Positions 7,285 through 64,000 of a stretch of 64,000 nt of DNA are shown here, one piece after another. The notes beneath the pieces are model-generated. The model made no database searches and was not told the DNA's origin. It worked only from the letters and a program-made list of their open reading frames with translations. Both the position numbers and the translations under genes were made by a program. Within the stretch, counting starts at the first letter, position 1, and each line of letters opens with the position of its first letter. The stretch is from positions 1,121,001-1,185,000 of the forward strand of contig NZ_JAQFIL010000001.1 of NCBI RefSeq assembly GCF_029504655.1, in the 5' to 3' direction. This DNA is from Catalinimonas alkaloidigena (GTDB lineage Bacteria > Bacteroidota > Bacteroidia > Cytophagales > Cyclobacteriaceae).

Positions 7285-9975
7285 CTAACTTTCTTTTTTT
7301 TGGATGTCCTGCTTTACGAGCTCTTCTAATGTAGCATCATCTTCCATTTCCAAAAGAAGGTTTGCAATAAGGGCTGTCCACCCCGTTTGATGTGACGCCC
7401 CCAAGCCCTGTCCGGTATCACCATCAAAAAATTCGTAAAAAAGGTGATGGTTCTTAAAGTGTGGATCCTCAATATATTGCCGGTACGAGTGATTGGTGTG
7501 GTACCGAAACTTCCCTTCATCATCTCTTTCAAATATTCTCAACAGTCTTTTACTCAGTTCGTTAGCAATTTGCTTTAGGTTGAGCTTTGTGCCTGAGCCG
7601 GTAGGGAATTCATATACGTAAGAGGAGCCATAAAACTTGTAATATTTGCGTAAAGACTGGATAATCAGGTAATTAAGAGGTAGCCAGATAGGACCTCTCC
7701 AGTTGGAGTTGCCGCCAAACATACTGCTGCTGCTTTCACCTGCTTCATATTGAATTACATGTTTACCATGATGCTCAAAAATAAAAGGGTTTTCTTTATG
7801 ATGCTTAGACAAGGAACGTATACCATAATCAGATAAAAATTCATCTTCATCCAGTAAGCGCTTGAGCAGTTGCTCTAACCGGTAAGCCCTGAGTACAGAA
7901 AATAGATATTCATTTTTTTCATTCTTTTCTTCAATTCTGGAGATAAGCGATGCCAGGTCAGGGCGGGTACGGATAATGTTGATTGCGCGGGTTTTAAACT
8001 CATACAGGTGGTCAAAGGCACTCTTATTGAAGATTTCAACGGCAAAAAGAGGGATGATACCTACCAGCGAACGAACCTTAAGTCGCTGCGTGCTACCGTT
8101 CTCCATTTGTATCACATCATAATAAAAAGCATCTTCCTCATCCCACAAAGAGATATCTTTCTCACCTATGTGGTGCATAGCCCAGGCAATATTCAGAAAA
8201 TGACGGAAAAATTTTGCGGCAGACTCTTCGTAAGCATTATTGTGCTTAGCCAGTTCCAAAGACATCCTCAGCATATTAAGGGCAAACATCGCCATCCAGC
8301 TGGTAGCATCTGCCTGCTGCATTTTTCTGATGCCGGGCGGCATTTGGTTACGGTCAAAAACACCAATATTGTCAAGGCCTAAAAAACCGCCTTCAAATAA
8401 ATCAATTCCGTTAACATCTTTTTGGTTGACCCACCAGGTAAAATTCATCAGGAGCTTCTGAAAGGCTCTTTCCAGGAAGTCCCAATCGGGAATACCGCTC
8501 TTTTGTTTATCCTTTTCATATACTTCCCATACTGCCCATGCATGCACGGGAGGGTTTACGTCGCTGAAGTTCCATTCATAGGCGGGAATCTGCCCGTTAG
8601 GGTGCATATAGTACTCGCGTAGCATCAGTTGGAGTTGTTCCTTGGCAAAGTCTGGGTCAACCTGAACAAATGAAGTAGCATGGAAAGCCAGGTCCCAAGC
8701 TGCATACCAGGGGTACTCCCACTTATCGGGCATTGATATGATGTGACGATTGGTAAGGTGCTGCCAGTTAAAGTTTCTTTTATCAAGACGAAAAGGAGGC
8801 TCATCACCAGGTTCTCCAAATAGCCATTTGAATACGTCCAGGTAATAGAACTGCTTGGTCCAGAGTAACCCTCCCAAGGCATTTCTTAATAGTTTTTGGT
8901 GTGCATTTTTTAAATGAGGCGGAGAAAGCTCTTTATAGTACGCTTCACTTTCAAATCTTCTTTGCTGAAATATTTGGTCAAAATCTTTCCAGGGAATATC
9001 CAAACGTTGCTTGCTGAGGCGTACTTTAAAAGTATGCGATTTTCCTGAAGGTATATTTGCCTTAAACCAAATCGCAGCTTTGGTGCCTTTCTTCTCCGGA
9101 TTTACAGATTTACTACCGAGTGTAACATGGTCATTGATCCCATCTTTTACCCAGGGATGTTTATTTTTGGTATTGTAGATGCGTAAGTCATTGCTCTCAT
9201 TTTCACAAAATAACTGCTTGCCTCCATGATGATGCAGATAATAGCTGCCATTTCTGCTGGAGTTAGCCAGTATACAAGAAGGTGAAACTGCTTTGAGCTT
9301 GGGTTTCTGATAGCGCTTGTTATGCTTCCAGTAATTTCTGAACCAGAGGTGAGGGAGTACGTGTATGGGAGCTGCTTCAGGGCCGCGATTATGCACTGTG
9401 ATTTTCATCAGCACATCATCTACTCCAGCTTTGGCGTATTCAATATAACAATCAAAGTAACGGTTATCCTCAAAAGCATCGGTGTCCAGTAGTTCATACT
9501 CAGGCTGCGTGCGATCTCGCTGATTAGCCTCAATTAATTCATCGTAAGGAAATGCCGACTGAGGGTATTTATAAAGATATTTGCAGTAAGAATGAGTAGG
9601 GGAGGACTCCTGATGAAAGTAAAGTTCTTTTACATCTTCACCGTGATTGCCCTGCTGATTAGTGAGGCCAAAAAGCCTTTCTTTGATAATAGTATCTTTC
9701 CCGTTCCAGAAGGCGGGTGCGAAACAAAGAATTTGCTGCAAATCACAAAACCCGGCAATAGCTTCTTCCCCCCAACGATAAGCGATGCTACGTGCCTGAT
9801 CATGTGAAATGCATCCCCATGCATTGCCATCAATGCTGTAATCTTCGCGTACAGTACCCCACTGTCTTTCAGTTATATAAGGTCCCCACTTTTTCCATTG
9901 TCTGTTTTCAGCCGAGTCAAGCAGACGTTCTTTTTCAATACTGATTTTAACATTATGCTTCCGGCTGTCCGTCAT
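7285..9975 (-). CDS. GH63-type (MGH1-like) glucosidase
   Basis: An 896-residue protein without a signal peptide, so probably cytoplasmic. The N-terminal beta-rich region begins RQWKKWGPYITERQWGTVRE, and the C-terminal half is an (alpha/alpha)6 barrel. Diagnostic segments are WEYPWYAAWDLAFHA (containing the likely catalytic aspartate), GGFLGLDNIGVFDR, SSSMFGGNSNWRGPIWLPLN and a C-terminal HQTGWTALIA. This combination is typical of bacterial proteins assigned to GH63 (mannosyl-oligosaccharide glucosidase clan GH-G), which act on alpha-glucosides such as glucosylglycerate- or trehalose-like substrates. The exact substrate is not predictable. The gene is monocistronic, with a 420-base AT-rich upstream region. 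Confidence 0.88.
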   Translation of the reverse strand: MTDSRKHNVKISIEKERLLDSAENRQWKKWGPYITERQWGTVREDYSIDGNAWGCISHDQARSIAYRWGEEAIAGFCDLQQILCFAPAFWNGKDTIIKERLFGLTNQQGNHGEDVKELYFHQESSPTHSYCKYLYKYPQSAFPYDELIEANQRDRTQPEYELLDTDAFEDNRYFDCYIEYAKAGVDDVLMKITVHNRGPEAAPIHVLPHLWFRNYWKHNKRYQKPKLKAVSPSCILANSSRNGSYYLHHHGGKQLFCENESNDLRIYNTKNKHPWVKDGINDHVTLGSKSVNPEKKGTKAAIWFKANIPSGKSHTFKVRLSKQRLDIPWKDFDQIFQQRRFESEAYYKELSPPHLKNAHQKLLRNALGGLLWTKQFYYLDVFKWLFGEPGDEPPFRLDKRNFNWQHLTNRHIISMPDKWEYPWYAAWDLAFHATSFVQVDPDFAKEQLQLMLREYYMHPNGQIPAYEWNFSDVNPPVHAWAVWEVYEKDKQKSGIPDWDFLERAFQKLLMNFTWWVNQKDVNGIDLFEGGFLGLDNIGVFDRNQMPPGIRKMQQADATSWMAMFALNMLRMSLELAKHNNAYEESAAKFFRHFLNIAWAMHHIGEKDISLWDEEDAFYYDVIQMENGSTQRLKVRSLVGIIPLFAVEIFNKSAFDHLYEFKTRAINIIRTRPDLASLISRIEEKNEKNEYLFSVLRAYRLEQLLKRLLDEDEFLSDYGIRSLSKHHKENPFIFEHHGKHVIQYEAGESSSSMFGGNSNWRGPIWLPLNYLIIQSLRKYYKFYGSSYVYEFPTGSGTKLNLKQIANELSKRLLRIFERDDEGKFRYHTNHSYRQYIEDPHFKNHHLFYEFFDGDTGQGLGASHQTGWTALIANLLLEMEDDATLEELVKQDIQKKES

Positions 9976-61480: not shown

Positions 61481-62926
61481 TTAGCCTACGCTACCCTCTA
61501 ATGTAAGCGCCAGAAGCTTTTGTGCTTCCACTGCAAACTCCATGGGCAGCTGATTTAATACTTCTTTACAGTACCCATTAACAATCAGGGCGACAGCATC
61601 TTCTTCACCTATGCCTCGCTGATTACAGTAGAAAATCTGGTCCTCGCCGATTTTAGAAGTAGTGGCTTCATGCTCTATCTGAGCAGTATTGTTATCAGAC
61701 TCTATATAAGGAAAGGTGTGCGCACCACATTGATCACCCATCAATAAAGAATCGCACTGGGAGAAGTTACGCGCGTTATCTGCACGTTTCATTACTTTTA
61801 CAAGTCCACGGTAGCTGTTCTGGCTATGCCCAGCTGATACTCCTTTGGATACGATACGGCTCTTAGTATTTTTACCGATATGTATCATTTTGGTGCCGGT
61901 ATCAGCCTGCTGATAGTTATTTGTAACTGCCACAGAATAAAACTCTCCGATGGAATTGTCACCTTTCAGAATACAGCTTGGGTATTTCCAGGTCACAGAA
62001 GATCCGGTTTCTACTTGTGTCCAGGAAATTTTAGAATTGTCTCCTGAACAGATGCCACGCTTGGTTACAAAATTATAAATTCCACCTTTACCATTCTTGT
62101 CACCGGGATACCAGTTTTGTACGGTAGAATATTTGACTTCAGCATCTTTAGCGGCATAGATTTCTACTACTGCAGCATGTAACTGATTCTCGTCACGCTG
62201 AGGAGCGGTACAACCTTCCAGATAACTAACATAAGAACCCTCTTCGGCTACGATAAGCGTACGCTCAAACTGTCCGGTATTAGCCGCATTAATACGGAAG
62301 TATGTAGACAATTCCATAGGACATCTTACTCCTTTGGGAATGTAGCAGAAAGATCCATCGCTAAACACTGCTGAATTTAGCGCGGCAAAATAATTATCAT
62401 TCTGAGGGACAACTGACCCAATATACTTCTTTACCAGTTCAGGGTGATTATGAACAGCTTCGCTGAATGAGCAGAAAATAATTCCCAGATCGCCGAGCTT
62501 CTCCTTAAAAGTAGTAGCTACTGAAACACTGTCCATTACCGCATCTACTGCCACACCGGTAAGCCTTTTTTGCTCTTCCAGAGAGATACCAAGGCGTTTA
62601 AACGTATCAAGCAATTCCGGATCAACCTCTTCTAAACTCTTCGGTTTAACCTTTTGCTTAGGTGCTGCATAATAAATGATATCTTGGTAATCAATTTCAG
62701 GATATTTTACATTATGCCAGCTAGGCTCCTTCATGGTAAGCCAATGACGATAAGCTTTTAGGCGCCATTCCAAAAGCCATTCAGGTTCTTCCTTTTTAGC
62801 AGAAATAAATCTTATAATATCTTCGTTGAGACCTTTGGGAGCTGAATCAGATTCAATATTAGATTCAAAGCCATACTTATAATCTGAGTTGGTAAATTCC
62901 TCAAGAATCTGGTTGTCCTTACTCAT
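61481..62926 (-). CDS. sufB: SufB scaffold component
   Basis: A 481-residue SufB, first gene of the SUF operon. Family marks are [100 protein letters not shown] and [20 protein letters not shown]. The cysteine expected in the cluster site (EGCTAP) is present. It receives sulfur from SufSE and builds the nascent cluster with SufC and SufD. The 180 bases upstream separate it from a codirectional Lrp-type regulator. Confidence 0.96.
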
Positions 62927-63106
62927 AGTTAATTATTGGTAAACAAATATTTCTAAAGACTTGTACATATGGTTAACACGCAAAAAAATTAAACGTTTCC
63001 ATACGTGTCAAAATTTGACTGTAAATTGCTGGAGTGGACGTTTTTCCACTAATTACTTATTTGGAACGAATTTAAACAAGCAGTGTTACAGTTCAAAATT
63101 TATTAT

Positions 63107-63574
63107 TTATTCACCAAGCTGAATATGACGGTTGAGGCTTTCTTCGAGAGAGATAAGCGTTTCAGTACGCACGATTCCATCAATTTTTTGGATTTTGTCG
63201 TGCAAAACTTCTCTGAGATGTTTGGTATCCCGACAATGGATTTTGATGAAGATACTGTAGTTACCAGTAGTATAGTGAATCTTAACTACCTCAGGGACTT
63301 TCTTAAGTTCATCCACCACTTGGTTGTACAAAGAACTTTTTTCAAGGTAAATTCCCAAAAAAGCTGTAATATCGTAGCCAAGTTTTGAGTAATCCATATT
63401 GAGGGTAGTGCCTCTCACAATGCCCATCTCTTCCATTTTGCGCATGCGGACGTGAACAGTTCCCCCGGATACGTATACTTTTTTGGCAATTTCAGTGTAA
63501 GGAATTTTTGCATCTTCAGATAGTAGTGCAAGGATTTTGAGGTCGATGTTATCAATTTCTAAATTTTTGCTCAT
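63107..63574 (-). CDS. Lrp/AsnC-family transcriptional regulator
   Basis: A 155-residue protein. The N-terminal HTH (LKILALLSEDAKIPYTEIAK, VSGGTVHVRMRKMEEMGIVR) and the C-terminal RAM domain (ITAFLGIYLEKSSLYNQVVD, VKIHYTTGNYSIFIKIHC) match feast/famine regulators, which form octamers and bind amino acids. It lies upstream of and on the same strand as sufB, with a 180-base gap. It could sense cysteine or a related amino acid for SUF expression, but this is inference and the gene may be independent. Confidence 0.93.
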   Translation of the reverse strand: MSKNLEIDNIDLKILALLSEDAKIPYTEIAKKVYVSGGTVHVRMRKMEEMGIVRGTTLNMDYSKLGYDITAFLGIYLEKSSLYNQVVDELKKVPEVVKIHYTTGNYSIFIKIHCRDTKHLREVLHDKIQKIDGIVRTETLISLEESLNRHIQLGE

Positions 63575-63701
63575 TTTGATGGGGCAAATTAGGTTTGGTT
63601 TAATTTTAACTGCTTAAAATTACGACATATATAAATTTTAATCAAATTTATTAAATTTTTTTTAAGTTGAAAGATTAAATCTTAATTTAGCAAATGAACA
63701 G

Positions 63702-63719
63702 AGAGATAAACGAATCTCT
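63702..63719. repeat. Short hairpin just upstream of the tRNA-like RNA
   Basis: AGAGAT (63702-63707) and ATCTCT (63714-63719) enclose AAACGA. It lies 10 bases before the tRNA-like RNA and may mark the transcript 5' region or a processing site. Confidence 0.4.
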
Positions 63720-63729
63720 TATATCACAC

Positions 63730-63847
63730 TGTAGGGTGATGAAACTGGCAGACATGCCCTCCCGTCTCGAGGGTGGAGACAACGGAATAAACGCTGATCT
63801 ATATTAGCGCTAACCGCTCCGTGGAGGTTCGATTCCTCCCCCTACAG
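63730..63847 (+). ncRNA. Atypical tRNA-like RNA with giant structured variable arm
   Basis: The 118-nt sequence folds as a cloverleaf. TGTAGGG (63730-63736) pairs perfectly with CCCTACA (63840-63846), and C63729-G63847 could add an eighth pair. The D arm is ATG-AAACTGGCAGA-CAT (63739-63755), as in tRNA-Leu. The T arm is GGAGG-TTCGATT-CCTCC (63823-63839). The anticodon arm would be CCCTC-CCGTCTC-GAGGG (63757-63773), but position 33 is C, not U, and the centre would be GUC. The variable arm (63775-63820, 46 nt) folds on its own: GGAG/CTCC, CGG/CCG, then CGCTGAT/ATTAGCG with loop CTAT. CCA is not encoded. Alternatives are a degenerate tRNA-Leu gene, a bacterial Y-RNA-like mimic or an unknown RNA class. 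Class is certain only as tRNA-like. Confidence 0.75.
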
Positions 63848-63877
63848 CACTTCATTTTTTGGGTTAATGTTGTTTTC

Positions 63878-63909
63878 AAAAAAGGCCATGAGTTTTCATG
63901 GCCTTTTTT
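63878..63909 (+). terminator. Strong terminator 30 bases after the tRNA-like RNA
   Basis: AAAAAAGGCCATGA and TCATGGCCTTTTTT form a perfect 14-bp stem around GTTT and end in T6. With no other gene on this strand upstream, it most likely ends the tRNA-like transcript. Confidence 0.9.
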
Positions 63910-64000
63910 GGTATATAACTACCACTTAAAAATCCACTTAAACCAGTTTTTTGCAATCCTTCCGAATTATAATCATTCCATTAGAAAATTTTAAATAATA
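63910..64000. other. Right edge of the window, no gene seen
   Basis: The last 90 bases are AT-rich and hold no open frame or RNA that I can recognise. Confidence 0.5.

Follow-up and report, generated by a model that had tools for sequence, protein, structure and literature searches.

In Escherichia coli, the AsnC gene lies divergent from asnA, and in staphylococci non-proteinogenic tRNA-Gly is used in cell-wall bridges. The E. coli pair, like the locus described here, sets an AsnC-family regulator divergent from an asparagine-making gene, in the present case a putative one whose product is an RNA. Staphylococcal tRNA-Gly is a tRNA withheld from translation as an amino acid carrier, as the present RNA would be, although the amino acid, the structure and the purpose differ.

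tRNA-dependent asparagine synthesis is described for Deinococcus and Bdellovibrio, and the accessible text of that study (PMC4206432) offers several points of likeness, i.e., GatCAB in the apparent absence of AsnA and AsnB, a substrate with U1-A72, and aspartate, here by proposal, loaded first. However, in that route a non-discriminating AspRS loads tRNA-Asn itself, which decodes, in contrast to the separate RNA with an Asp anticodon found here. Other unusual tRNA-like genes, some clustered and some inactive in translation in E. coli, are the allo-tRNAs and selC* tRNAs. In the accessible text on them (PMC7609411), allo-tRNAs have 8/4 or 9/3 acceptor branches, whereas the acceptor and T stems of the present family are 7/5, which places it outside that group. 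No earlier description of the RNA was found among the papers listed in searches of an open-access library.

Anatomy and detection of the RNA

The window, i.e., the whole stretch of 64,000 nucleotides that was analysed, contains the following features.

63107..63574, minus strand: AsnC-like member of the Lrp/AsnC family of regulators, divergent, 155 aa, start about 155 bp upstream of the RNA
63730..63847, plus strand: tRNA-like RNA, 118 nt, discriminator G63847 counted in
63730..63736, plus strand: 5' strand of the acceptor stem, TGTAGGG, with U1-A72 and G2-C71 invariant in 128/128 homologues of alignment A2 (see below)
63739..63755, plus strand: D arm with a 3-bp stem and a Leu-type loop with GGCAGA, position 20a being A
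63757..63773, plus strand: anticodon-type arm, loop CCGTCTC, read as C32 C33 G34 U35 C36 U37 C38
63775..63820, plus strand: long variable arm with the helices GGAG/CTCC and CGG/CCG, both with covariation
63792-63809, plus strand: hypervariable apical hairpin of the variable arm, distal to the two covarying helices
63823..63839, plus strand: T arm, GGAGG-TTCGATT-CCTCC
63840..63847, plus strand: 3' strand of the acceptor, CCCTACA, and discriminator G73 (G73 in 128/128), CCA not encoded
63854..63876, plus strand: downstream element ATTTTTTGGGTTAATGTTGTTTT, with like sequence 3' of a number of other copies
63878..63909, plus strand: terminator-like palindrome AAAAAAGGCCATGA-GTTT-TCATGGCCTTTTTT, then T's

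The arms named in the preliminary description (acceptor, D, T and variable arms, an anticodon-type stem with the loop CCGTCTC, and no CCA) are all present at 63730-63847; the observation of a tRNA-like RNA is confirmed, and the interpretation given to it is partly supported. The anticodon-type stem has 5 bp, the acceptor 7 bp plus a possible C63729-G63847 pair, and the variable arm 4, 3 and 7 paired positions. The terminator claimed for the RNA is also there as a palindrome followed by T's, though a terminator scan did not list it among its predictions, perhaps because A/T flanks lengthen the stem into the T run.

ARAGORN called no tRNA in the whole window, and Rfam gave no tRNA or tRNA-Sec match in 62500-64000 even at E up to 10. 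One copy of the RNA in the window's genome reached 25.5 bits, vs. a cut-off of 29 for RF00005. The RNA family is unrecognised by Rfam and ARAGORN.

The window RNA folds better than 200/200 of its shuffles (z −3.2). Its minimum-energy fold retains the acceptor, the T arm and parts of the variable arm, and a GTCTC/GAGAC hairpin replaces the anticodon and D stems. This competing hairpin had been proposed as a possible switch, which agrees with the energy model for the window copy but not with the family, where 11/122 of the members tested have the hairpin exactly and 56/122 could form it if G-U pairs are allowed. A conserved switch is therefore not supported as a family trait, while the window copy may still have one.

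Distribution and covariation of the RNA family

By blastn, the RNA had matches in 39 of 59 genomes, namely that of the window and those of 58 relatives. Alignment A1, which comprises 33 copies not fitted to a covariance model, was the source of the covariance model R1; its 27 pairs form in 96.2% of cells, and 8 of them are changed on both sides. The search with this fold, which had been suggested beforehand, gave R1 matches in 69/395 genomes of a class-wide sample (own genome counted, E<=1e-14), and the variable-arm helices covary. In the order, 212/291 genomes matched at E below 1e-17 (counted by eye), with 73 weaker matches besides, possibly normal tRNA-Leu or short forms.

Alignment A2, fitted to R1, draws on 91 loci chosen among the better-scoring ones; their 133 matches comprise 128 distinct members. 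Its cells pair in 98.2% of cases, and 16/27 pairs have changes on both sides, vs. 2-4 in slid controls and a mean of 7.0 in shuffles. In the CGG/CCG helix, the outermost pair is open in 31/121 cells. The tRNA-like RNA family is real and conserved, and its pairing goes beyond chance. Like a canonical tRNA, it has a cloverleaf with intact stems and the T and D loop motifs. By eye it resembles tRNA-Leu in the type of D arm, the class II variable arm and the GT preceding the T stem, but differs in U1-A72, in G73 instead of A73, in lacking a Leu anticodon and in its 46-nt variable arm.

Genomes carry several copies, in places as tandems. A pattern scan of named genomes that demands GTCTC in the loop listed 80 loci of 120 stretches, and the carriers among the matches listed include Chitinophaga, Dyadobacter, Algoriphagus, Cyclobacterium, Echinicola, Fulvivirga, Neolewinella, Niabella and others. 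A phage collection gave just short matches, in Streptomyces and Arthrobacter phages, and no phage origin was seen.

Some features vary between copies. An element like ATTTTTTGGGTTAATGTTGTTTT follows many of them (63854-63876 in the window; also L005, L008, L021, L023, L025 and L071), and a different version, TTTTGGGTTTATTGTTAATTGACT, stands behind copies of another group. At the locus L034 (G009:C13), 15 blastn matches lie inside about 6 kb; three of these are long, and the other twelve span the T arm, the acceptor and the downstream element only. The apical hairpins of the variable arm form classes with the conserved loops CGAGCTCG, GGGTTGACCAC and AACCGGACTAT (L014, L019 and several of L051-L068; L029, L084, L088, L096 and L106; second copies in several of L054-L067). 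Some of these hairpins are palindromic and could form kissing dimers.

Aspartate and amidation marks

The accessible text of PMC9976931 names G73, G34, U35, C36 and C38 as strong aspartate identity determinants, and describes G1-C72 and G2-C71 as strictly conserved in bacterial tRNA-Asp, with G1-C72 crucial to Asp identity. According to the same text, the amidation of Asp-tRNA-Asn is conferred by U1-A72, and tRNA-Asp carries the antideterminants G1-C72 and U20a; U1-A72 is likewise the GatCAB signal in the accessible text of PMC4206432. Each of U1-A72, G2-C71 and G73 occurs in 128/128 members of A2, so that G1-C72 is replaced throughout. Position 20a is A in 128/128 (pattern read as the second base after GG), i.e., U20a is absent from every member. 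Among the 126 members with a 7-nt loop, U35, C36 and C38 are found in 126/126 and G34 in 114/126, leaving 12 loops with another base at 34. All five strong determinants are present in the window copy. With these and U1-A72, the RNA joins Asp identity with the GatCAB determinant, and both antideterminants are missing.

The loop departs from that of a decoding tRNA at positions 33 and 37, which we take to be required for decoding. Of the 126 loops, 120 have U at position 37, 3 have C and 3 have G, so that a purine is missing in 123/126, and position 33 is U in 89, G in 29 and C in 8. Instead of the U33 and purine 37 of a canonical tRNA, the window copy has C33 and U37. The loss of U33 stressed in the preliminary description thus applies to the window copy but not to the family, in which 89/126 members have U33; its doubt that the RNA decodes is probably right, the general anomaly being a base other than A at 37.

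The tRNA-Asp of the window's genome has the loop CTGTCAC and G1-C72. The commonest loop of the family, CTGTCTC, differs from it at 37 only, and the window copy also at 33. In that genome, 35 distinct tRNAs were seen when 150 of 370 candidates were scored, and those starting with U1 are tRNA-Asn and tRNA-Gln only; for tRNA-Arg CCG, U1 comes from the ARAGORN boundary alone, which lies one base before that of Rfam. The genome has normal tRNAs for five Leu anticodons, three Ser anticodons and Asp GTC, and the idea that the RNA supplies a missing Leu, Ser or Asp tRNA was rejected on this ground. Ile-GAT and Ala-TGC are absent among the 35, a list that is incomplete with 150 of 370 candidates scored.

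Six weak or odd class-level matches (G541, G672, G048, G594, G435 and G474) were inspected singly. Two of them, G541 and G672, are ordinary members. G048 (L329, G048:C23:55338-55414) represents a short form, which has no long variable arm; its loop, CTATCTC, has A at position 34, and it retains U1-A72, G73 and U35 C36 U37 C38, though it folds no better than its shuffles (z 0.02). G594 has C33 and A38, the loop of G435 no longer contains GTC, and in G474 the loop is of another kind and the acceptor doubtful; these three departures show that the identity rule has exceptions among weak members.

The AsnC-like regulator and its partners

Against NCBIfam, the divergent regulator scores best with AsnC (169.6 bits), followed by LrpA (89.7) and Lrp (56); the score is the best of the NCBIfam models listed but lies below the curated cut-off of 227 for AsnC NF008384. 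When the neighbours of 87 loci (duplicates among them) were clustered, one group brought together 46 Lrp/AsnC proteins encoded upstream of the RNA in divergent orientation. At E<=2e-48, a threshold chosen by hand, an AsnC-like relative is found in 67/69 RNA-positive vs. 22/326 RNA-negative genomes of the class sample (p 1e-53), and at E<=1e-25 in 67/69 vs. 60/326 (p 2e-37); these p-values, like the others below that count single genomes, ignore phylogeny. The two RNA-positive genomes without a regulator at E<=1e-25 are G474 and G672. In 45/67 RNA-positive genomes, the AsnC-like gene is divergent and within 1.2 kb of an RNA copy. The pair also occurs in 50/80 of the named loci listed, 71 of which have at least 900 bp upstream. 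The motif TAnnTTTG, which we take to be the consensus of the Bacteroidetes promoter element, lies within 80 nt upstream of the RNA in 29/43 loci, vs. 2.4 in shuffles, at distances of 22-72 nt.

The 22 genomes with the AsnC-like gene but without the RNA show what can take its place. In 8/22, the divergent gene is an asparagine synthetase, namely AsnB in five (G416, G566, G589, G668 and G679) and the AsnA-type PRK06462 in three (G487, G532 and G642), and in the other 14/22 some other gene lies beside AsnC. A search for a hidden RNA upstream of AsnC in 14 of the 22 gave one variant and one possible remnant; the remaining 8 were inspected for the neighbouring gene only. The variant (L269 1271-1382, minus strand, in G444) has the acceptor and T arm of the family, with D and anticodon arms replaced; it adjoins an AsnC-like gene, and its genome has AsnB. 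The possible remnant is in G480 (L271). Very probably, the RNA family belongs to asparagine metabolism.

Asparagine synthetases and GatCAB

Gene content was compared in a hand-chosen panel of 80 genomes, i.e., 40 of the 69 RNA-positive genomes, all 22 RNA-negative genomes with AsnC, and 18 of the 304 with neither; the counts below follow this order. E. coli-type AsnB over cut-off is found in 0/40, 10/22 and 7/18, the AsnA-type NF005054 in 0, 3 and 0, and AsnA TIGR00669 in 2 (G066 and G649), 2 and 3. Any dedicated synthetase is thus present in 2/40 RNA-positive vs. 21/40 RNA-negative panel genomes (p 3e-6). The other 38/40 RNA-positive genomes lack proteins over cut-off for NF006949, NF005054 and TIGR00669, though TIGR01536 paralogues exist.

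GatCAB, scored by gatB alone, shows the reverse pattern, with gatB in 40/40, 15/22 and 6/18 (21/40 of the RNA-negative genomes). AsnRS is present in 79/80 panel genomes, G419 being the one without, and GlnRS in 24, 6 and 13. Where both AsnRS and GlnRS are present, GatCAB has no necessary decoding role. Among the GlnRS-positive panel genomes, gatB is found in 24/24 with the RNA vs. 1/19 without it (p 3e-11), and counted by family in 8/8 vs. 1/12 (p 7e-5). In family f61 both states occur and switch together: the RNA-positive G397, G430 and G543 have gatB and no dedicated synthetase, and the RNA-negative G358, G460 and G567 carry AsnB but lack gatB. In the window's genome, gatB, asnS, glnS and aspS are all present, and no protein exceeds the cut-off for any of the three dedicated synthetases. 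Among the RNA-negative panel genomes, 13 carry gatB but lack a dedicated synthetase, and another 6 are without either, which means that absence of a known Asn route is not rare here.

The one GlnRS-positive genome that has gatB without the RNA, G330 (L334, G330:C19:17761-21121), encodes GatB and a second AspRS as a fusion in a single frame of 1120 codons, with RDHG in the anticodon-binding region of that AspRS. A His at this site is presumably the mark of a non-discriminating AspRS, and the fusion may perhaps be a covalent transamidosome for asparagine. In an alignment of 30 AspRS sequences, which left out the G330 fusion, this His is absent in 15 RNA-positive and in 15 RNA-negative sequences; a non-discriminating AspRS was rejected as a mark of RNA-positive genomes because the site does not separate the groups.

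The absence of dedicated synthetases carries the caveat that Bacillus-type AsnB paralogues exist in RNA-positive genomes. An AsnB-superfamily match at E<=1e-30 is found in 36/40 of them, with none in G046, G065, G320 and G609. All 7 paralogues tested (of 8 fetched; 595-637 aa) pass TIGR01536, and 6 of the 8 lie among glycan genes by eye (L338-L343). The two outside glycan genes, in the window's genome (L336, G000:C1:1675803) and in G059 (L337), could be asparagine synthetases. In L336, the TIGR01536 amidotransferase paralogue at 7804-9717 is followed by LepA-like and FolD-like frames (by eye). In the accessible part of PMC7311316, the GapMind table has Echinicola vietnamensis among the bacteria capable of synthesizing all 20 amino acids, and the RNA is present in another Echinicola (L143). 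Neither the work on GapMind nor that on the gut microbiome provided a direct test.

Proposed function of the RNA

Conservation, covariation, identity positions, synteny with the regulator and co-occurrence with gatB are established here, as is the presence of asparagine synthetase genes at the RNA's place in some RNA-negative relatives. The reading that accounts for most of these facts, and is moderately probable, is that the RNA is a dedicated tRNA-like carrier for asparagine synthesis by AspRS and GatCAB and does not decode; the preliminary description could well be right in naming a non-canonical tRNA or a mimic of the substrates of tRNA enzymes among the options. The divergent AsnC-like regulator would control the RNA, which would be processed like a tRNA and receive CCA. 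AspRS would then load aspartate by reading G34 U35 C36, C38 and G73, and GatCAB would read U1-A72 and amidate Asp-RNA to Asn-RNA. Lacking A at position 37, and in some copies U at position 33, Asn-RNA would be kept from decoding Asp codons, and the asparagine released from it would be supplied to AsnRS. Besides the exceptions and the AsnB paralogues given above, three points speak against this scheme. By our estimate, spontaneous hydrolysis of Asn-RNA would hardly be enough for the proteome, so that catalysed release would be needed; the RNA does not have the G1-C72 of bacterial Asp identity; and the long variable arm might clash with AspRS, whose usual substrate is a tRNA with a short variable arm.

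The main rival is a regulatory tRNA mimic under AsnC, which would titrate or sense AspRS, GatCAB or asparagine, or base-pair through its loops, with no carrier role. The placement beside a divergent AsnC-like regulator and the near-invariant TCTC of the loop suit it, as does the competing hairpin favoured by the energy model in the window copy, and the hypervariable apical hairpins with their copy-specific classes and the tandem copies resemble sibling regulatory RNAs. However, a mimic alone leaves unexplained why gatB is kept in GlnRS-positive panel genomes only with the RNA (24/24 vs. 1/19) and why synthetase genes replace the RNA beside AsnC in some relatives, and we regard it as rather unlikely. 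The RNA could also be charged with serine, or in some other way, and serve as a carrier in a reaction outside the ribosome, since it has G73 and a long variable arm, both of which are among the SerRS recognition elements in the accessible text of PMC7609411. This reading is improbable, given that the short form in G048 has no long arm yet keeps U1-A72, G73 and U35 C36 C38, and that the D arm and the variable-arm junction are Leu-like by eye. SerRS is not known to read the anticodon, and the near-invariant G34 U35 C36 C38 would be left unexplained.

That the RNA, for all its odd variable arm, does decode, be it as an Asp isoacceptor or as a missense suppressor, is suggested by the GUC anticodon in 114/126 members and the canonical-looking T and D loops, but is very improbable: the window's genome already has a normal tRNA-Asp GUC, purine 37 is missing in 123/126 members and U33 in 37/126, and neither ARAGORN nor Rfam calls the RNA. 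A decayed tRNA-Leu or a relic of a mobile element would agree with the Leu-type D arm and the multiple, in places tandem, copies per genome. This origin is scarcely credible when compensatory changes preserve the helices across 128 distinct members, which bears out the preliminary view that the RNA is no decayed tRNA, and when synteny with the regulator extends across families.

Implications

Read as an asparagine carrier, the RNA would have consequences beyond the window. It may be, with the chances evenly balanced, that in a large part of the Bacteroidia free asparagine is made on a dedicated, translation-incompetent tRNA that replaces a synthetase under AsnC control, and that GatCAB is retained for this. 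Such a carrier would explain why GatCAB is kept in many Bacteroidia that have AsnRS and GlnRS, and would provide an asparagine route without AsnA or E. coli-type AsnB; in the accessible text of PMC4206432, 18 genera have all three enzymes but no Asn synthetase, and the Bacteroidetes are one of the clades to which they belong. Apart from its function, the RNA represents a widespread family beyond the recognition of Rfam and ARAGORN. If the mechanism is true, an amino acid would be made on an RNA that exists for that purpose only, a case relevant to the idea that tRNA-dependent amino acid synthesis is left over from the growth of the genetic code.
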